This document shows, in pieces, positions 779 to 27,271 of a stretch of 28,883 nt of DNA; the stretch's first letter is position 1, and each line of letters opens with the position of its first letter. Under the pieces are notes generated by a model. The model was not told where the DNA came from, made no database searches, and saw nothing but the letters and a program-made list of their open reading frames with translations. The position numbers and the translations under genes are program-made. This DNA comes from a virus. Where the stretch lies: positions 1-28,883 of the IMG/VR virus record IMGVR_UViG_3300025101_000123, one strand, 5' to 3'.

Positions 779-3199
779 ATGATTTACACTAATGTTAATA
801 GTTCATTTCCAAGTCAGGTGGTACCAGACGCAGAAAAGAATACTTTAGATTACGGTTATCAAGTAGGTAGAGCTATTGAGAACGAATGGTTTAGAGGTGA
901 TCGGGGCTTAGGCGCCGGTGGTCGTTTTGGTAATAACTGGCAAGATTTTCATAGATTAAGGCTTTATGCTAGAGGAGAACAGTCTGTAGCTAAATATAAA
1001 GATGAATTATCAATAAATGGTGATTTATCTTATTTAAATTTAGACTGGAAGCCAGTAGCAGTTTTATCTAAGTTTATAGATATTGTAGTAAACGGTATGA
1101 CTGACAAAGGATATGAAATAAAATCTTTTGCAACAGATCCTTATTCTACTAGAGAAAGAACCGCGCATGCTACAGGTTTAGCACAAGATGCTTTTGCTGG
1201 AAATTTAATAAAAGAAGCAAAAGCTAATTTTAATATAGACTTACAAAGATCTAACGTGCCAGAAGATCAATTGCCTAAAAGTAAAGAAGAACTAGAGCTT
1301 CACATGCAATTAAGCTATAAACAAGCTGTAGAAATAGCAGAGGAAGAGTTAATAAATAATGTATTTAATTATAATAAATACGAAGAAATAAAAAAGAGAT
1401 TAGCTTACGATTTAGTTGTTTTAGGTATAAGCTGCGTTAAAACAGATTTTAATTTAGCAAACGGTGTTGTAGTTAATTATGTAGATCCTGCTAATTTAGT
1501 TTATTCATATACAGAAGATCCTAATTTTGAAGATATATACTATGTTGGAGAAGTTAAAAGTGTAAGTTTAGAAGAACTTAAAAAGCAATTTCCATATTTA
1601 ACTAGTACTGAACTAGAAGAAATACAAAAATATCCAGGTGATTCTAATTATACTAGAAACTACTATGGTCAAGATGATAAGTATAATAATATACAAGTTT
1701 TATATTTTGAATACAAAACATATAACAATCAAGTATTTAAAATTAAACAAACAGATCAAGGTTTGTTGAAAGCTTTAGAAAAGCCAGGTGATTTTAATCC
1801 TCCTGAAAACGATAATTTTGAAAGAGTACATAGAGCTATAGAAGTATTATACAGCGGAGCTAAAATTCTTGGTCATGAAAAAATGCTTAAGTGGGAGTTA
1901 GCTGAAAATATGACAAGGCCTTATAGTAATCAAACTAAAGTTCAAATGAACTATTCTATATCTGCGCCACGTATGTATAAAGGCAGAATAGAAAGTATTG
2001 TAAGTAAGTGTATTGGTTTTGCTGACATGATACAGCTTACTCATTTAAAGATACAACAAGTTCTAGCTAGAATGGTACCAGATGGGGTGTTTGTAGACGT
2101 TGATGGATTATCAGAAGTTGATTTAGGAAACGGTACAAATTACAATCCTCAAGAAGCTTTGAACATGTACTTTCAAACTGGTAGTATTGTAGGAAGATCT
2201 AAAACGATAGATGGTGATTTAAATCCTGGTAAAGTACCTATTCAAGAGTTACAAACCTCAAATGGTCAAGCTAAAATAAGTGCACTAGTACAAACGTATC
2301 AATATTATTTACAAATGATACGTGATGTGACAGGATTAAACGAAGCTAGAGATGGTAGTCAACCAACTAAAGATGCTTTAGTGGGTTTACAAAAACTAGC
2401 AGCAGCTGCGTCTAATACAGCTACTAAACATATTTTACAGTCGCTAATGTATTTAACAGTAAGAACAGCTGAGAATATAAGTTTAAGAGCTGCAGATATG
2501 TTAAGTTTTCCGTTAACTAAAAATGCTTTAATGAATAGTATAAGTTCTTTTAACACAAGCACTTTAGAACAAATGTATAATTTAAATATGCATGAGTTTG
2601 GTATATTTTTAGAATTAGAACCTGAGGAAGAAGACAAACAAATGCTTCAAAAAAATATACAAATAGCATTACAAACTGGCGGAGTTGATTTAGAAGATAT
2701 TATAGACATAGAACAAATATCTAATATTAAACTAGCAAATCAAATGCTTAAAATAAAACGTAAGCAAAAACAAGAAAGAGATCAATCTGCTGCTCAAGCT
2801 AATATACAAGCCCAAGCTCAAGCTAACGCTCAAGCAAACGAGCAAGCCGCTTTAGCGGAGATGCAAAAACAACAAGCTTTAACAGAAAGTAAATTGCAAT
2901 TAGAACAAGGTAAATCTCAATTTGAAATACAACGTATGCAAACAGAAGCTGAAATTAAAAAACAATTAATGGCAGAAGAGTTTAATTACAATATTCAATT
3001 AGCTGAAGCTAGAGCTAGAGTTGAAAAAGAAAAAGAAAAAGAAATAGAAAATCGTAAAGATGAGCGTGCTAGAATAATTGGCACGCAACAGTCAGAAATG
3101 ATATCACAAAGACAAAATGACGAATTACCAAAAAACTTTGAGTCAGCTGGTAATGATTCACTTGGAGGATTTGGCTTAGAACAGTTTGAACCTCGGTAA
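779..3199 (+). CDS. Portal protein
   Basis: An 806-residue protein lying immediately after the terminase, the usual place for the portal: the dodecameric ring at the capsid vertex through which DNA enters and leaves. The length fits the large portals of podoviruses and crAss-like phages. The N-terminal part has an aromatic/acidic segment (LNLDWKPVAVLSKFIDIVVNGM, about residues 88-109), the middle holds the helical region with an RDVTGLNEARDG turn near 520, and this is followed by long Ala-rich helices. Residues about 660-770 are a Gln/Ala/Glu/Lys-rich coiled coil (repeated AQAQANAQAN), typical of the barrel helices that extend into the capsid. The ATG starts on the base after the terminase stop. 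No Shine-Dalgarno is visible. Confidence 0.85.
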   Translation: MIYTNVNSSFPSQVVPDAEKNTLDYGYQVGRAIENEWFRGDRGLGAGGRFGNNWQDFHRLRLYARGEQSVAKYKDELSINGDLSYLNLDWKPVAVLSKFIDIVVNGMTDKGYEIKSFATDPYSTRERTAHATGLAQDAFAGNLIKEAKANFNIDLQRSNVPEDQLPKSKEELELHMQLSYKQAVEIAEEELINNVFNYNKYEEIKKRLAYDLVVLGISCVKTDFNLANGVVVNYVDPANLVYSYTEDPNFEDIYYVGEVKSVSLEELKKQFPYLTSTELEEIQKYPGDSNYTRNYYGQDDKYNNIQVLYFEYKTYNNQVFKIKQTDQGLLKALEKPGDFNPPENDNFERVHRAIEVLYSGAKILGHEKMLKWELAENMTRPYSNQTKVQMNYSISAPRMYKGRIESIVSKCIGFADMIQLTHLKIQQVLARMVPDGVFVDVDGLSEVDLGNGTNYNPQEALNMYFQTGSIVGRSKTIDGDLNPGKVPIQELQTSNGQAKISALVQTYQYYLQMIRDVTGLNEARDGSQPTKDALVGLQKLAAAASNTATKHILQSLMYLTVRTAENISLRAADMLSFPLTKNALMNSISSFNTSTLEQMYNLNMHEFGIFLELEPEEEDKQMLQKNIQIALQTGGVDLEDIIDIEQISNIKLANQMLKIKRKQKQERDQSAAQANIQAQAQANAQANEQAALAEMQKQQALTESKLQLEQGKSQFEIQRMQTEAEIKKQLMAEEFNYNIQLAEARARVEKEKEKEIENRKDERARIIGTQQSEMISQRQNDELPKNFESAGNDSLGGFGLEQFEPR

Positions 3200-12100: not shown

Positions 12101-13195
12101 TCTGGTGCAGCTATTTACTTTACTCCAAGTTCATCTTCAGGTTTTACAAATGACATTAGCTCAACTATATTCCAAAATGCACCTACATATAATTCGCCGC
12201 AAGGTAATAATACTAAGAGATTATTAATAGGGTTAAAGCAAAACCCATCAGTGGGTACGCCCGTGGTGGTGAGTGTATGCAACCCTGCCCAAACTACCAC
12301 CAATCCAACCCCAGGGTCTTCACCAGGTTTTATAAATAAAAGAGAATCATTTTCCCTTACAAGTGGAAAAATATATATATACATAAATCCTTGGAATCAA
12401 CAACCGTTGCAATTTAATCCTATTATTCAATCTACAACTAGTATTAGATATCAAATAGCATATAGAGCGGATTCTAATAGTGCTTGGACTACAGCTTTAG
12501 ATTTAAACAATAATCCTGCTACTTTCACAGGTACTTGGCTTTACAATGGGAGTAGTAAAGAAGGTTTAGACACTACTCCACCTAGCAATTTTCCTCAAAT
12601 ATCGCTAAGTAAAACAGAATCAAATACAAATAGAAGATATGCCGGTGTAGTTTATGCTTTTGGTGTGGTTGGCGAATATAGAATATTGCATGGAAACTAT
12701 ATTACTACATTTGGAACTTTTACAAACAGTCAATTTCCAGATAATGGTTTTTCTTGCACAGCCACGACACCTCCTTCTTTTCTATCTAGCCCTGAAACAG
12801 CTAGTTATATTGAATATGGGGATTTTAATTATCCTCAAGCAGGGGCTGGAGGTCCTGACCAAAATATAGGTCCACAGAGCGGAAGTTTACAAACTGTTTT
12901 TAGATATCAAATAAATCAAACTACTTGTAATAGTACATTTACAACTACTACGAATGTCTTCGCTAGAGAACCTTTAGCTAAATACGTAACCCAATTATAT
13001 ACAAACAATTCTTTAAGCACTGAATATACAAGTTCAACTGGGGTTGATTACAGAATAAGAAGAATGAAATCTAGTGCAACAGCGTCGAATGTTTTTTTAA
13101 ACCCTGAATATAGTAAAGATGGAGCGTATGTAATTAGATTTTCAAACACTACAGGTCTCGTTGTGCCTAGTAGTCAAACGCCTTGTCAATATTAA
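9125..13195 (+). CDS. Large tail nozzle / tube stabilisation-type protein with Ig-like insertions
   Basis: A 1356-residue structural protein. Residues 5-52 carry the signature FLKSKMNKDLDARLVPSGEY RDAINIQVSKSEGDDVGALENVLGN (split here for length), typical of the gp12/gp10-like nozzle and crAss-like stabilisation family: a short basic start, LPxGEYxDAxN, then a LENxxGN turn. The next about 550 residues look like repeated beta blades (YLFFTDYTD, VLEDFLFFTDNRNQPRKINI, FVRFSYRFKFDDGEYSLIAPFTQP). Around 865-960 a Thr/Asn/Ser-rich segment (NVAPTINNSN ... TCTFDLVLTDDGSP ... TKTFEVVF) resembles a cadherin/Ig-like fold, and the C-terminal 350 residues are again beta-rich, low in charge and Cys-containing. 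It probably forms the distal tail tube. The 484-residue gene after it starts 2 bases beyond its stop and probably works with it. Confidence 0.65.
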   Translation: MAEVKNAFLKSKMNKDLDARLVPSGEYRDAINIQVSKSEGDDVGALENVLGNVSRFDFENHSGASNLTCIGYFVNESDGNVYLFFTDYTDPYNTATPTYSSSAKNFIYQCNLTDTPNPTAAPPIQKLVEGAFLNFSTNRPIIGVNVLEDFLFFTDNRNQPRKININFAINAALNGTTYYENEDQISVAKYYPYEPILLIKPSPLAAASGEDECTMYDAFSEFIPLNQDPATSPTNVQNPYYESTFPGDPQFLEDKFVRFSYRFKFDDGEYSLIAPFTQPCFIPKQDGYFLEGDEQQTFGSTIVEFMQNKVNKIDLQIPLPSPGDQLQNDFKVSEIDIIYKESDALALQVVETIQVDTDFVNNVGSGSIFEFTYLSQKPYKTLPEKEITRVYDKVPVKALGQEIISNRVVYSNFQDKHTPPNFIKYQVGANEKYEPSDTTPYEQNKTTIEYPNHTLKQNRNYQVGIVLADRYGRQSTVILSNDQNPSLGGFGADTIYLPYRDLNDSITYLGDSLKVSINEAIQSNKNEALLTPGLYSSDSTSDDYNPLGWYTFKIVVKQIQQEYYNVYTAGAIKGLPLNSTTSDLNTSFITLINDNINKVPRDLTEVGPQDKTFRSSVKLFGRVENTVAAFSNIGNEQYISNDDRVSFTTNNIEDLFDLFDVVDYAGTPPNKPITSDENPYYPFFKSESNPFVAEFVTSQNSADQFGVENATTGTPAFYPKVENLTIFETTPTVSKIDLYYETSTAGTIEDLNAAVGNLSGGATSIGGFSYSQNEGMPIGTAVASGFEFLNFSSVALNGTASLVSVIDDTNANRTSEFSLVSLGGTQWELRTNALFLYGPNSSSNQAYQFTFQFAAGTNPPTTLPIQNGNLDNVAPTINNSNATPIQKEIGEQSILQNLSGVNGSADTNQNTVGLNFTIDNTNTTGNGFFVVVNQNEVQNTNPSASGTCTFDLVLTDDGSPQIGTTTKTFEVVFDEPTSNFPQKSSISDFSDGSGAAIYFTPSSSSGFTNDISSTIFQNAPTYNSPQGNNTKRLLIGLKQNPSVGTPVVVSVCNPAQTTTNPTPGSSPGFINKRESFSLTSGKIYIYINPWNQQPLQFNPIIQSTTSIRYQIAYRADSNSAWTTALDLNNNPATFTGTWLYNGSSKEGLDTTPPSNFPQISLSKTESNTNRRYAGVVYAFGVVGEYRILHGNYITTFGTFTNSQFPDNGFSCTATTPPSFLSSPETASYIEYGDFNYPQAGAGGPDQNIGPQSGSLQTVFRYQINQTTCNSTFTTTTNVFAREPLAKYVTQLYTNNSLSTEYTSSTGVDYRIRRMKSSATASNVFLNPEYSKDGAYVIRFSNTTGLVVPSSQTPCQY

Positions 13196-13197
13196 TT

Positions 13198-14652
13198 ATG
13201 GGAGCAATATTAGAAGTAAAATATTTCAATGCTTTTCAACTGAAAAAGACACATACTGGAACACCAACCTCTACAACTCCACCTGTTTGGGATGGTAGCA
13301 CAGGTGTACCAGTTGGTTTAAACGGATCATACCCAGTAACATCACACCCACCCAGTAATGACGCTCAAAACGCAAGTTGGTCTATAGAAGAAGCTAGAAT
13401 ACAAGGTGGTTTTAATAACACAAATGTTGATTATGGTGTAAGAGCTTATCTTGTAGATCAAGAACCAAATGGTAGCCAAAGAACAAATGCTCTTATATAT
13501 TCTGGTATATTTAATTCAAGAACTGGTATTAACAATACAAATGTTTTTAATGTAGCAGAAGATATAACTAAAGCTGTTGATCCAGCTAATGGTAGCATAC
13601 AAAAATTATATGCTGAAGATACTAACTTAATTATATTCCAAGAAAATAAAGTAAGTAAAGCTTTAATAGATAAAGATGCTATATATAGTGCTGAAGGTAA
13701 CGCTACACCTGTTAGTCAATTTAATTTAGTAATAGGTCAAATAGTTCCTTATGCTGGTAATTTTGGTATAAGTAGAAATCCTGAAAGTTTTGCTGTATAT
13801 GGTTATAGAAAATATTTTGTAGATAAAGATAGAAATTCTGTAATGAGATTGTCTCAAGACGGTTTAACTGAGATATCTAACTACGGCATGGTTGATTACT
13901 TTAGAGATGAATTTGGAAATCTTGATTCATCGTCGTCAACAGGTAAAGCTGTAGGTGCTTGGGATATATATACAAAGCAATATTTAGTTAGTTTGCAAGG
14001 TAGCAACATAACACCTACGACATCTGGCCCTAACAATGAATTTTCAGATACATACCAAACTTTAACGTTTGATGAGTCTGTTCTTGGTTGGACTAGTAGA
14101 TTTACATACAAGCCAGAAAAAGCTTTTAGTGTTAAAGCTAAATTTTATAGCGTAAACGAAGGTGTTTTATATGAACACAATTATCAGGAGTTTGGTAAAA
14201 ATGATAATAGAAGTAATTTTTATAATGTTTATTCTGATTCTTTTATTACATTTATATTTAACCCTAACGTAAGTGCTTCTAAAGTATTTAAAACAATTAA
14301 TTACGAAGGTTCTAGCGGTTGGGAAGTTTCTTCTTTTGAAGCGGCTAGAAGTTTTGAATTAAACGACACTGCAAACGTTGTTTTAAGTTACGATGAAGGT
14401 GGTTACACGCAAGACTCTATACAGTATTATGCTGGTTTTTATAAAAAAGAAGGTAAGTATTTTTCTAACCTTATAAATAATAGTCAAGCCACATCACAAG
14501 AAGTTTTATTTGGCGTAAGTATTTCAGGTGTAAAAGGTTATTATTCTACTGTAACTATAAGAACAGATAACTCTACACAAGTACCAGGTGAGGGTGGTAA
14601 AACAAGAGAGTTGTTTGCAGTTTCTTCTGAATATATAGAATCAAGTTATTAA
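13198..14652 (+). CDS. Tail (muzzle/nozzle-associated) beta-propeller-like protein
   Basis: 484 residues from the ATG at 13198; a TTG at 13183 in the same frame is a poorer start that overlaps the preceding gene. The protein is beta-rich with features I associate with the distal tail of crAss-like and marine Bacteroidetes phages: SWSIEEARIQGGFNNTNVDY, LIYSGIFNSRTGINNTNVFN, VDPANGSIQKLYAEDTNLII, FAVYGYRKYFVDKDRNSVMR, LGWTSRFTYKPEKAFSVKAK and FKTINYEGSSGWEVSSFEA, spread along the chain. There is no enzyme motif or membrane segment. It lies 2 bases behind the large nozzle-type gene, so the two products are likely made in step and assembled together. The name is inferred. Confidence 0.6.
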   Translation: MGAILEVKYFNAFQLKKTHTGTPTSTTPPVWDGSTGVPVGLNGSYPVTSHPPSNDAQNASWSIEEARIQGGFNNTNVDYGVRAYLVDQEPNGSQRTNALIYSGIFNSRTGINNTNVFNVAEDITKAVDPANGSIQKLYAEDTNLIIFQENKVSKALIDKDAIYSAEGNATPVSQFNLVIGQIVPYAGNFGISRNPESFAVYGYRKYFVDKDRNSVMRLSQDGLTEISNYGMVDYFRDEFGNLDSSSSTGKAVGAWDIYTKQYLVSLQGSNITPTTSGPNNEFSDTYQTLTFDESVLGWTSRFTYKPEKAFSVKAKFYSVNEGVLYEHNYQEFGKNDNRSNFYNVYSDSFITFIFNPNVSASKVFKTINYEGSSGWEVSSFEAARSFELNDTANVVLSYDEGGYTQDSIQYYAGFYKKEGKYFSNLINNSQATSQEVLFGVSISGVKGYYSTVTIRTDNSTQVPGEGGKTRELFAVSSEYIESSY

Positions 14653-14657
14653 ATCAA

Positions 14658-15065
14658 ATGGAATTAAATATACGTAGACTTACAGAAAATGATTGGGACA
14701 CATTGTGCTTATGGTGGGATGCGTGGCCTGAATGGGTTAACCCACCTAAAGATTTTTTACCTGATAACGGTACTGGTGGTCTTATTGTAGAAAAAGACGT
14801 GCCTATCGCTGCAGGTTTCATATATTATACTAACTCTAAGGGAGCTTTATTTGAGTGGGTTGTATCTAATCCAGATTACAGAGAAGCTGACAGAAAAGAT
14901 GCTATAGAGCTTTTAATAAAAGCAGCTGAGGAAGTGTGTAAAGCTAATGGAGTTAAGTATATGTTTAGTATAGGTAGATCTAAACCTTTAATTGAGATGC
15001 ATAAAAAATTAGGGTGGACCGTTGACAAAAGTTCATCACATGAAATAACTAAAGTAATAAATTAA
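14658..15065 (+). CDS. GNAT-like N-acetyltransferase fold protein
   Basis: 135 residues with the layout of a small GNAT: an N-terminal strand-helix (LNIRRLTENDWDTLCLWWDAWPEW), a central pair of strands (GGLIVEKDVPIAAGFIYYTNSKGALFEWVVSNPDYR), a long helix (DRKDAIELLIKAAEEVCKAN) and a final strand (KYMFSIGRSKPLIEMHKKLGWT) ending in the typical xxKLGW turn. The acetyl-CoA pyrophosphate loop (Q/RxxGxG/A) is not clear: the region reads NPDYREADRKDAIE, so binding of acetyl-CoA is uncertain. It sits between tail and ejection-protein genes, where small GNAT-like proteins are often found in marine phages; it may modify a virion or host protein, or be structural. The substrate cannot be told. Confidence 0.6.
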   Translation: MELNIRRLTENDWDTLCLWWDAWPEWVNPPKDFLPDNGTGGLIVEKDVPIAAGFIYYTNSKGALFEWVVSNPDYREADRKDAIELLIKAAEEVCKANGVKYMFSIGRSKPLIEMHKKLGWTVDKSSSHEITKVIN

Positions 15066-15066
15066 T

Positions 15067-15792
15067 ATGGCAGCAATATCAGCAGTTGTAGCTGGTGTTG
15101 GCGCGGCAGCCTCTGTAGTTAGCGGGGCTGTAGCAGCTAACCAAGCAAAACAAGCCGCAAAAGGAGCGAGAAATGAGAGGAGTAGAGCTGAAGCAGAGTT
15201 ACAAGCTGTAAAAGACGCTAGGGAAAATATTATAAATCCTTATGATAACACTAAAAACTTAAGTGATTTAGCACAAGATCTGAGTGGTCAAATGTCTAAT
15301 CCGTTTGAAAATATGGGAGTTGCTACGCAAGCAGCTGAAATACAAATGGAACAAGCTGATATCGCTTTAGCAAATACGCTAGACACGCTTAGAGCAACTG
15401 GCGCTAGTGCTGGCGGAGCTACAGCTTTAGCTCAAGCAGCTCTTCAAAGTAAAAGAGGTATTGCAGCTAGCATAGAGCAACAAGAAGCTAATAACGAAAA
15501 AATGAGAGCTCAAGGTGAAGCTAACTTGCAGCAACAAAAAATTTCAGAACAACAAAGGCTTCAGAGTATAGCAATATCAGAAGGGCAAAGAGAGCAAGCT
15601 GCTATATCAGCTGGAAGACAATTTGAGTTTCAAACAGCTGAAAATAGAACTAACATGGACCTTGACAGAGCAGCTAGTAAAATAACACAAGCTTCTGCTA
15701 ATCAAGCTTCTGCTAATCAAGCTAAAGCTGCTGCATGGGGAGGTGTAGCCTCTTCTTTAGGAGGTATAGCTTCATCAGCTGTGGGAAATTAA
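15067..15792 (+). CDS. Ejection / internal virion protein, Ala/Gln-rich (T7 gp14 / P22 gp7-like position)
   Basis: 241 residues in the primary frame. The first about 25 residues are small and hydrophobic (AAISAVVAGVGAAASVVSGAVAA), a likely membrane-inserting helix, followed by long Ala/Gln/Glu/Arg-rich helices, with a Gly/Ala-rich patch (ATGASAGGATALAQAALQSKRGIAASI, about 112-138) and a hydrophobic small-residue tail (WGGVASSLGGIASSAVGN). This is the style of small ejected core proteins that help open a channel in the host membrane. Two larger ejection-type genes follow directly. A 15-base tandem repeat (15688-15717) encodes QASAN twice. The stop is immediately preceded by GGGAAAT, and a -1 shift there would extend the protein by 24 residues to 265 (see the separate entry). 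Confidence 0.6.
   Translation: MAAISAVVAGVGAAASVVSGAVAANQAKQAAKGARNERSRAEAELQAVKDARENIINPYDNTKNLSDLAQDLSGQMSNPFENMGVATQAAEIQMEQADIALANTLDTLRATGASAGGATALAQAALQSKRGIAASIEQQEANNEKMRAQGEANLQQQKISEQQRLQSIAISEGQREQAAISAGRQFEFQTAENRTNMDLDRAASKITQASANQASANQAKAAAWGGVASSLGGIASSAVGN
15688..15717 (+). repeat. Two perfect 15-base tandem repeats inside the ejection protein gene
   Basis: CAAGCTTCTGCTAAT occurs twice in a row, followed by CAAGCTAAAGCT. It encodes QASAN-QASAN-QAKAA in a helical region, so copy number can change in frame. Confidence 0.85.
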
Positions 15793-15863
15793 AGGCAGCT
15801 CCTAGTGTAAGACCTAAAGTAAACACTGTAAGTACTTTAACGCCGCAAGGTTATAGTTTTTAA
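15783..15863 (+). other. Putative -1 frameshift site and 24-codon extension of the preceding gene
   Basis: The last sense codons of the 15067 gene read GTG GGA AAT TAA. Positions 15783-15789 form G GGA AAT, which fits the X XXY YYZ slippery heptamer for a -1 shift, with the stop next in line. In the -1 frame the sequence stays open from 15789 to the TAA at 15861-15863 and encodes LKAAPSVRPKVNT followed by VSTLTPQGYSF, with codons in the style of the genome. This accounts for almost the whole 82-base gap before the next gene. A weak H-type pseudoknot can be drawn downstream (15804-15808 with 15823-15827; 15816-15821 with 15833-15838), and an AGGAGGT lies at 15759-15765. A one-base sequence error giving the same longer protein is the main alternative. 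Confidence 0.5.
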
Positions 15864-15874
15864 TAAAGTAAAAA

Positions 15875-17503
15875 ATGAGTTATAGAAATCCACAAATAAT
15901 CGTTGATCGTTCAGCAGAAATATATTCGCAAGCCTCGGATCAGTTTGGACAACAGCTAGCTCAAGGCGTGCAGAATTATTTTGATAATAGAAAAAAGAAA
16001 GCAGCTGCTGTTCAAAAGAAAAAAAATGCATATCAACTAGCTTTAAACGATGTTACCTTAAATTATAATAATAGTTTAAATTCTGCTACAGAAGATATTA
16101 ATAAAAGCACTTTGTTTCAAGATGTTCAAGATCAAGCTAGAGCTAGATTAGATGGTAATGAGTTTGGTATAGGTGTTATTGAAATGGCTACTCAATTAAA
16201 GATGAATCCTGATTTAGATAGAAATACTAGAGCTGAGTATTTAAAAGCTGTTTCAGATTATCAAACTTGGCAGAGTGGTATTACAGATAAGATAGGTGCT
16301 ACTATAGTAGACATAGAACCACTAGAAGGTATGAACGCTGGTAACATAGGTCAAGGTTTCGATTTTGCTGGCACTGGTAACGAGAAGTTTCAAAATATGG
16401 TTGTTGCTAACACGCTTGCTAATAAATCTTTTTCAGGTATACAAACATCTAAAACATTAAATGGTAACATGTTAGGTGTTGATATGGTTATTAATCCTAA
16501 TGATGAAATGATAAAGAAATACGTTAAAGAAGGTATTTTAGATTTAAAAGATATTGAACCTGCAGAAGACGGTAACTATTATTTTAACTGGACCAGAAAC
16601 ATAGACAAGTGGGAAGGTGGTCTTATAGCTGAAGTACCTTCTTCGTTTGATGGTGTAGCTGCTTTAGAGACTGCTGGTATAGTTGATAACAAGGGTTTAC
16701 CTAAAGAAGGATTTTTTACAGAAAAAGTAGATGTTGTTACTAATGTTGACGGCACAGACAAACAAAGAATATCTACTAAACAATATTTTAATCCTGATAT
16801 TTTAAAAAACAATCCTGTGTTTGAAACTGAAACTTTAAAGTATGCTAAAGGTTTAAGTCAATTACCCACAGGACAAATATTATCTGCTTTAGAAAATCAT
16901 TTTAATGAAGAAATCAGTGCTAAAGAGTGGCTTAAGTTAGACGCTGATAAGCAAAATAATATAATTCAAACTCTTATTACTGATAAAGAAATAGACAGAA
17001 TGACTGGTGGATTTAACACTGAAGTAATAAAAGACGGAGTGGTGTTAAAAAACCCAACAATAAAAGAAACAATAGCAGCCGACGAAGTCAGGTACTATCA
17101 ACAAAGCGAAGGTAAACTAATTGAAAGACCTTCTACAGGTAGTAGTACTAGCGGTTCTAAGCAAAACGAAGCTGCTTTAGAAAACATAGAAGAATTAGAC
17201 ATTAGTTCTGCGTTCGCTGAAGGACCTTCGCAAGAACCAGGTAGAGGTGTTTTAAGCTTAGATACTTTAGAAAAATTAATCTCTAGACCTCCGTATAATA
17301 TTAACGTAACTAAAGCTGAAACTGTTGGTGGAGAAGATACTAGAAAACTTACTAAATCTGTAGAAGGAGCTGATAGATCTGTAACTATATTTGATAGTGC
17401 TACAGACGGCGAAGTTAAAGCCGCTTTGAAATTTTTAGAAACAGGTGTTAGCTTTAAACCTACTGCAAATGTAGAAATAGATAATATACCTAACCTACCA
17501 TAA
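15875..17503 (+). CDS. Putative ejection / internal virion protein (T7 gp15-like position)
   Basis: 542 residues, start at the ATG after an A-rich leader. The N-terminus MSYRNPQIIVDRSAEIYSQA leads into a helical, Gln/Lys-rich region (about 20-60, NRKKKAAAVQKKKNAYQLALND), and the rest is mixed, soluble and acidic, without a recognisable enzyme motif. A Ser/Gly/Glu-rich stretch (about 418-450) looks like a linker before a small C-terminal domain (LDTLEKLISRPPYNINVTKAETVGG). It is the middle gene of three probable ejection proteins, small, medium and giant, an order that matches gp14-gp15-gp16 of T7-like phages. The assignment is by order and general composition; sequence similarity to T7 gp15 is not evident. 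Confidence 0.5.
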   Translation: MSYRNPQIIVDRSAEIYSQASDQFGQQLAQGVQNYFDNRKKKAAAVQKKKNAYQLALNDVTLNYNNSLNSATEDINKSTLFQDVQDQARARLDGNEFGIGVIEMATQLKMNPDLDRNTRAEYLKAVSDYQTWQSGITDKIGATIVDIEPLEGMNAGNIGQGFDFAGTGNEKFQNMVVANTLANKSFSGIQTSKTLNGNMLGVDMVINPNDEMIKKYVKEGILDLKDIEPAEDGNYYFNWTRNIDKWEGGLIAEVPSSFDGVAALETAGIVDNKGLPKEGFFTEKVDVVTNVDGTDKQRISTKQYFNPDILKNNPVFETETLKYAKGLSQLPTGQILSALENHFNEEISAKEWLKLDADKQNNIIQTLITDKEIDRMTGGFNTEVIKDGVVLKNPTIKETIAADEVRYYQQSEGKLIERPSTGSSTSGSKQNEAALENIEELDISSAFAEGPSQEPGRGVLSLDTLEKLISRPPYNINVTKAETVGGEDTRKLTKSVEGADRSVTIFDSATDGEVKAALKFLETGVSFKPTANVEIDNIPNLP

Positions 17504-26893: not shown

Positions 26894-26895
26894 TC

Positions 26896-26940
26896 ATGGA
26901 AAATATATGTCCAATTTGCATTAGCTGCGGCTTTTGCTAA
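26896..26940 (+). CDS. 14-residue four-cysteine mini-protein
   Basis: The 58-base gap between the thioredoxin-fold gene and the next small gene holds ATG-GAA-AAT-ATA and on to TAA, encoding MENICPICISCGFC. Four of 14 residues are Cys, spaced CPIC-IS-CGFC, like two zinc knuckles placed back to back. The start lies 2 bases after the previous stop and the stop lies 11 bases before the next ATG, matching the close packing of all genes here. It could chelate one metal ion or be redox-active. An ORF this short can arise by chance, but the composition and the exact fit in the gap argue against that. Confidence 0.45.
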   Translation: MENICPICISCGFC

Positions 26941-26951
26941 AATAAAATATT

Positions 26952-27092
26952 ATGGGAAAGATTAGTCCAGCTTGTAAAACTGCAGCAAAAAAGAAATTTA
27001 AAGTATGGCCTAGTGCTTATGCCTCTGGTTGGGGTGTAAGGTGTACTAAGGCTGGAGGCCCAGGTAAAATGGGTAAGAAGAAAAAGAAGTAA
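26952..27092 (+). CDS. Small basic Lys-rich protein (46 aa)
   Basis: Starts MGKISPACKTAAKKKFKVWP, continues SAYASGWGVRCTKAGGPGKM and ends GKKKKK. The core KxWPSAYASGWxVxCxK, with two cysteines, is a pattern I associate with small proteins widespread in marine phages; no biochemical function is known to me. The strong positive charge suggests nucleic-acid binding or DNA packing in the particle. Its stop overlaps the next start (TAATG), which implies translational coupling. It is the first of four consecutive small basic genes. Confidence 0.65.
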   Translation: MGKISPACKTAAKKKFKVWPSAYASGWGVRCTKAGGPGKMGKKKKK

Positions 27093-27271
27093 TGGCTAAA
27101 GCGTATAGAGGAGTTTTAAAAGCTCGTATAAATAAACTATACGGAGGCGATGTTACTTGTAGTAAAGTTAAAAAACTTAAGTCACGTAATGAAGCTACTA
27201 AGCGAGACGTGCAGTTGGCTAACTGGTTTATTAATATGCAAAATTGTAAACATGGCAAAAGAAAAGCTTGA
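27092..27271 (+). CDS. Small basic protein of unknown function (59 aa)
   Basis: Starts at the ATG within the preceding stop (TAATG) and overlaps the next gene by 20 bases. The product is basic (MAKAYRGVLKARINKLYGGD at the start, CKHGKRKA at the end), with two cysteines (TCSK and QNCKH) and a helix RNEATKRDVQLANWFINMQ. I do not recognise the family. The arrangement and charge match its neighbours, so it probably belongs to the same nucleic-acid-binding or virion group. Confidence 0.55.
   Translation: MAKAYRGVLKARINKLYGGDVTCSKVKKLKSRNEATKRDVQLANWFINMQNCKHGKRKA

Follow-up and report, generated by a model that had tools for sequence, protein, structure and literature searches.

What happens at the end of a phage gene that closes with GTG GGA AAT TAA, when the frame one base back stays open behind the stop? 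The question is raised by a gene for a 241-aa protein (15067..15792) in a marine virus record of 28.9 kb (IMGVR_UViG_3300025101_000123; 28,883 nucleotides, analysed as a whole and called here the window), which carries the structural module of a crass-like phage. The slippery heptamer G_GGA_AAT (15783..15789) stands in zero-frame phase, as a -1 frameshifting site does, and the zero-frame stop TAA (15790..15792) lies directly 3' of it. Read in the -1 frame, positions 15789..15863 give a tail of 24 codons (15789-15860; LKAAPSVRPKVNTVSTLTPQGYSF) and a stop TAA (15861-15863), and the resulting long form would comprise 265 aa. The gap between the gene's stop and the next ATG (15875), 11 nt beyond the tail stop, is 82 nt, and the neighbouring gaps are 2, 5, 1 and 9 nt. 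The original prediction had thus correctly read from the sequence both the in-phase heptamer with the stop as the following codon and the -1 frame that nearly fills the gap in an otherwise gap-free stretch (adjoining gaps of 1-9 nt). The window by itself, without its relatives, is suggestive only, because dinucleotide shuffles leave a -1 frame open over 24 codons with a probability of about 0.04. The same frameshift architecture is absent from all other gene ends of the window, and searches of the window for Rfam families and tRNAs gave no match. The widest intergenic gap of the window (256 nt) lies at 26894-27149.

Genomic setting and identity of the 241-aa protein

A portal-family protein (779-3199; phrog_6547), whose closest annotated relatives belong to phages of Flavobacterium, Cellulophaga, Maribacter and Tenacibaculum, and a muzzle-type protein (13198..14652; PF25729 crAss_MUZ_C, E=7e-11; phrog_14478) are encoded in the same module with other virion structural proteins, and this combination marks the module as crass-like (Crassvirales type). 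An apparent second overlap at 13183/13195 was rejected as an artefact, the listed TTG start at 13183 being mechanical and the ATG of the muzzle gene lying at 13198. The muzzle gene is followed 3' by genes of 135, 241, 542 and 2498 aa, in that order; the muzzle gene, the 241-aa gene with all its elements and the 542-aa gene are on the plus strand. The 135-aa gene (14658-15065) is conserved in cultured relatives and belongs to phrog_17252, with no function assigned there, and its counterpart in MW202828.1 is annotated as an N-terminal acetyltransferase subunit. The 542-aa gene (15875..17503) occupies the position of a second cargo protein, and its product has no family or PDB match.

The 241-aa protein, the core of which is kept in more than 390 loci, begins with a hydrophobic Ala/Val/Gly segment (residues 1-19, 15067..15123; Kyte-Doolittle mean 1.94 over 19 residues) and nearly ends with a hydrophobic Gly/Ala segment (residues 221-239, 15727..15783; mean 1.15). 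The latter is the final element of the short form but lies internally in the long form, where a polar tail follows it. The AlphaFold2 model of the 241-aa protein is all-helical (pLDDT 81) and has no meaningful fold match in the PDB, and the sequence itself has no match in Pfam, PHROG or the PDB. The designation as an ejection protein in the original prediction thus gains from the gene order behind a crAss muzzle gene and from the hydrophobic N-terminus, and no match to a known ejection protein, by family or by fold, backs it. For phiCrAss001, an ejection channel formed by the cargo proteins gp45 (C1) and gp46 (C2) is expected; gp45 is a 90.8-kDa protein with a predicted N-terminal membrane helix (PMC10172136). 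The gene position after the muzzle gene, the N-terminal membrane helix of gp45 and the presumed ejection are shared features, although gp45 is far larger than 241 aa and the 241-aa protein matches no PDB entry by sequence or fold. Because of its gene position and hydrophobic N-terminus, the 241-aa protein is likely the functional counterpart of a phiCrAss001 cargo protein, and would then be an ejected cargo protein of the crass-like virion.

A tblastn search with the core in isolated phages found nothing, and cultured relatives were reached via the portal protein only. At the same place, Flavobacterium elemoviruses, Cellulophaga phages phi38:1, phi13:2, phi19:3 and Calle_1, Maribacter phage Panino and Tenacibaculum phage Gundel_1 encode a weakly similar 'structural protein' in a single frame, and several of these homologues have C-termini rich in Ser, Thr, Pro and Asn.

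Gene ends across uncultured relatives

Viral contigs and genomes of uncultured crass-like phages provided 393 loci with complete gene ends (designated by L numbers), which were reduced to 200 non-redundant junctions. The next gene starts less than 45 nt downstream in 165 of these, leaving no room for a shifted tail, and most of the protein family has no tail at all. A long-gap class of 29 junctions was defined by a gap of at least 59 nt or, in two loci at contig ends, by a visible -1 tail; L123 and L075, which also have long gaps, were left out as rearranged. At the 3' end of the L075 gene, the zero frame continues into the MSYRNPQ start of the next gene (280 aa), and this fused frame suggests an indel or assembly error. 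In 26 of the 29 long-gap loci, the window included, the -1 frame stays open for 15-44 codons past the stop and ends near the next ATG, usually at a distance of 9-31 nt. The remaining three (the L002, L004 and L006 groups) have instead an open +1 frame of 22-40 codons.

The heptamers were defined as X_XXA_AAZ or X_XXT_TTZ in zero-frame phase and at most two codons from the stop. By this definition, 22 of the 29 long-gap loci carry such a heptamer, compared with 4 of the 165 tail-less ones (Fisher p=3.6e-19, in which independence is overstated since some tail loci are kin), and none of the 29 has a heptamer in either wrong phase. The heptamers seen are GGGAAAG, GGGAAAC, GGGAAAT, GGGAAAA and AAAAAAG, and in 16 of the 29 loci they are flush against the stop, while four loci with -1 tails (L304, L333, L330 and L332) have no canonical heptamer. 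UAG, moreover, serves as the zero-frame stop in 17 of 26 -1 loci but in 24 of 165 tail-less loci (p=1.6e-7, with kinship among loci ignored), whereas 24 of the 25 stops that close the -1 tails are UAA. The probability that all -1 frames are jointly open by chance is about 1e-25 in dinucleotide shuffles, which treat as independent loci that are not. The alignment of homologues that had been proposed as a check therefore finds GGGAAAT or variants of it conserved together with the short -1 frame (L001, L163, L366 and about 20 more), and the comparative set places the junction pattern, as read from these sequences, far beyond chance. In L332 (2185-2240), a zero-frame TGA stands three codons before an intact GGGAAAG TAG, and the tail frame overlaps this TGA as GTGA; the shift may have been lost naturally here, or replaced by re-initiation. 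Reassignment of TGA was ruled out for L332, as no other TGA occurs inside the long coding frames of the locus.

RNA structure is enriched downstream of the junction at the family level. On average, the 30 nt that begin 2 nt past the heptamer fold more stably than their shuffles do (mean z -0.88, p=0.006), with values of about 0 further downstream, and H-type pseudoknots, called by a simple enumerator at p<=0.05, occur in 11 of 26 -1 loci but in 6 of 74 control windows; the enriched hairpin or pseudoknot sits 4-8 nt downstream. The weak pseudoknot that had been drawn for the window does not share in this statistical support, its downstream RNA folding no better than shuffles. A possible stimulatory element of the window, AGGC-AGCTCCTAGT-GTAAGACCT (15793..15815), belongs to a motif common to L304, L163, L332, L366 and L330. 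In these five loci and the window, which represent different core clades, 17 of the first 26 columns after the stop are invariant (GGC....TAG.GTAAG.CCT), and synonymous sites appear constrained. A two-helix structure is compatible with this motif but offers too few informative pairs for support from the pairing test. An upstream motif resembling a Shine-Dalgarno (SD) sequence is not enriched (3 of 26 -1 loci versus 17 of 165 tail-less loci), and a slow stop beside the slippery site is a plausible stimulator. The A-site codon AAT of the window is weaker for shifting in E. coli than AAG. For the other heptamers of this type, G_GGA_AAG shifts very readily in E. coli, and haloarchaeal tailed viruses use G_GGA_AAC/AAG as their g-t sites (PMC5009743).

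Tail peptides and decoding modes

The tails are hypervariable between loci, and several nevertheless form homologous groups: L001/L163/L366, L092/L104, L105/L108/L135, the window with L002/L119, and L112/L315. The window tail is homologous to those of L002/L004, L119, L304 and L330, and a nucleotide-level search with its 9-residue end returned L002/L004 as the sole matches. Tail DNA alignments keep one codon phase across loci, and the differences fall on codon positions 1, 2 and 3 in the ratio 22/18/44 (five disjoint pairs, p=9e-4). The same tail can also be decoded differently: L145 carries in its zero frame the tail for which L130 needs a -1 shift (core distance 0.17). Because of the tail homology, the third-position bias and the in-frame version of the tail in L145/L130, the peptide appears to be under selection, and the -1 frame is thus open, conserved and selected at the protein level.

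In-frame tails also occur in L003, L010 and the cultured phages. L002/L004 (around 3733) and L006/L007 (around 3706) share the junction GCC TTT GGG TAA C, followed by a tail in the +1 frame; within each pair the junctions are identical between different metagenomes, and between the pairs the tails have diverged. The +1 tail of L002 (...VSTVSTLTPQGYSF) matches the -1 tail of the window. Since just two lineages show +1 tails, +1 recoding in the L002 and L006 lineages is less secure than the -1 shift, and we regard it as somewhat favoured. The three +1-tail loci suggest that the direction of the shift may be interchangeable, as in Listeria phage capsids.

A core tree of 199 sequences, built with FastTree from the first 225 residues and thus leaving out the tails, requires 19 changes of tail state, and the tail-bearing rows are scattered in 19 patches: about 18 with -1 tails (26 loci) and one with +1 tails. 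To judge by the sequences, the C-terminus is a hot spot that bears no tail, an in-frame, -1 or +1 tail, or a chaperone-of-endosialidase-like domain. The last of these is seen as an in-frame C-terminal region of S74 type (SDRRLKENI) in L033 (3001-4044) and L012 (3001-3936), with a sub-threshold Pfam match in L033 and none in L012; such a region also occurs in L058, L072 and L079, upstream of the anchor ATG.

Probable frameshifting, its alternatives and its precedents

The slippery site, its phase, the open homologous tail, the third-position bias, the UAG-enriched stops and the in-frame, -1 and +1 alternatives together argue that the 241- and 265-residue forms are very probably products of programmed -1 ribosomal frameshifting, to which we assign a probability of about 0.9. 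A ribosome would reach GGA AAT with the stop as the next codon, and a fraction would slip back one base on G_GGA_AAT, with tRNA-Gly and tRNA-Asn re-pairing with GGG AAA. Slipped ribosomes would read 24 further codons while the others terminate, so that a single mRNA would yield the 241-aa and 265-aa forms in a fixed ratio. The expected junction peptides are ...GNLKAAPSVR in the window and ...GKVGGPEIGPPQ in L135. The short form would end in the hydrophobic Gly/Ala helix and the long form would add the polar tail after it; both forms would be made and packaged, and the tail, which a minority of copies would carry, probably contacts another virion component or the host envelope.

The same arrangement might be a decaying remnant, in which an indel shortened a longer ancestral protein and left the tail behind as a fossil, or it might be a sequencing error. 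The relatives with in-frame tails and the value of about 0.04 for the lone open frame are what a remnant would leave, yet right-phase heptamers at the junction and UAG enrichment are not expected of random truncation. The original prediction had named a longer single-frame protein in relatives as the sign of a sequence error; in-frame tails do exist (L145, L003 and the cultured phages), yet in many independent contigs the shifted arrangement and its slippery site are both retained, and the approximately 19 tree patches, the homologous tails with their third-position bias and the junctions identical across metagenomes also oppose an error. Decay or error is thus very unlikely. It is likewise quite unlikely that the shift alone matters, for instance through ribosome pausing or coupling to the downstream gene, and that the tail sequence is functionless: the hypervariability of the tails, their lack in most relatives and the post-stop nucleotide motif common to six loci would fit, whereas protein-level homology, third-position bias and the in-frame version of the same tail point to selection on the peptide.

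Other origins of the tail are hardly credible. If the tail were a separate small peptide, made by re-initiation or translational coupling at the stop, its frame should be able to start there, and the overlap of the tail frame with the stop, together with the GTGA overlap in L332, fits such a route; however, 23 of 26 -1 loci lack an ATG, GTG or TTG in the -1 frame within the stretch between 8 codons upstream and 5 codons downstream of the stop, and the in-phase heptamer would be left unexplained. Transcriptional slippage on a homopolymer run, giving mRNAs of both frames, is conceivable for the six A's (AAAAAAG) of L099, L112, L201, L315 and L336, but most loci, the window among them, have GGGAAA only, which is too short for polymerase slippage, and a slipping polymerase would not need the codon phase that the heptamers invariably keep.

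Programmed -1 frameshifting at this junction would have close precedents. In lambda G/GT, ribosomes shift to the -1 frame at low level close to the 3' end of the gene, on a heptamer of G_GGA_AAR type, and so add a C-terminal part; this shift is conserved across distant phages (PMC5009743). The position, heptamer type and outcome are alike, but gpG and gpGT are assembly chaperones absent from virions and have a conserved T domain, whereas the protein described here is a predicted cargo-type virion protein, its heptamer usually abuts the stop and its tail is hypervariable. In T7/T3 gene 10A/10B and in Lactobacillus phage A2, -1 frameshifting extends the capsid protein to a minor C-terminally extended form (PMC5009743). 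These cases likewise derive an extended minor form of a virion protein from one gene; however, they concern the major capsid protein, with an Ig-like extension in T3 and A2, and have no known relation to the 241-aa protein. The capsid and tail-shaft extensions of Listeria phages PSA (+1) and A118/A500 (-1) show that equivalent extensions can arise by +1, -1 or in-frame decoding, and the Listeria +1 shift occurs on the codon just before the stop (PMC5009743). The GGG UAA C of L002/L006 (+1), the GGGAAAT of the window (-1) and the in-frame tails of L145/L003 form a similar series, although the genes, hosts and slip codons differ (a proline codon in Listeria versus GGG here).

The -1 extension of a phage virion protein is therefore of an already known kind (T7/T3 gene 10, A2, A118). 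As far as the searched literature goes, the novelty lies in the protein class and the phage order, in the placement of the heptamer right against a stop enriched in UAG, and in a hypervariable tail whose mode of decoding switches: outside subscription papers, the search found no published frameshift in an ejection-type protein or in Crassvirales, and the word 'frameshift' does not appear in the phiCrAss001 paper (PMC10172136). A more tentative extension, which we hold to be possible and rather doubtful, is a family-wide recoding system of uncultured crass-like phages that displays a rapidly swapped and possibly host-envelope-adapted tail on a set minority of copies of a predicted ejected protein, and that retains its tail-bearing product although the -1 (UAG-flush heptamer), +1 (GGG UAA C) and in-frame modes replace one another repeatedly.

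Most of the recoding known in tailed phages concerns tail-assembly chaperones and capsid or tail-tube proteins. A recurrent frameshift in a cargo/ejection-type protein of crass-like phages would, if true, extend it to a further protein class and a further phage order. It would also show that gene callers overlook about 15-44 residues of this protein in tail-bearing genomes, and would mean that the ejection apparatus requires the protein in two forms at a set ratio.
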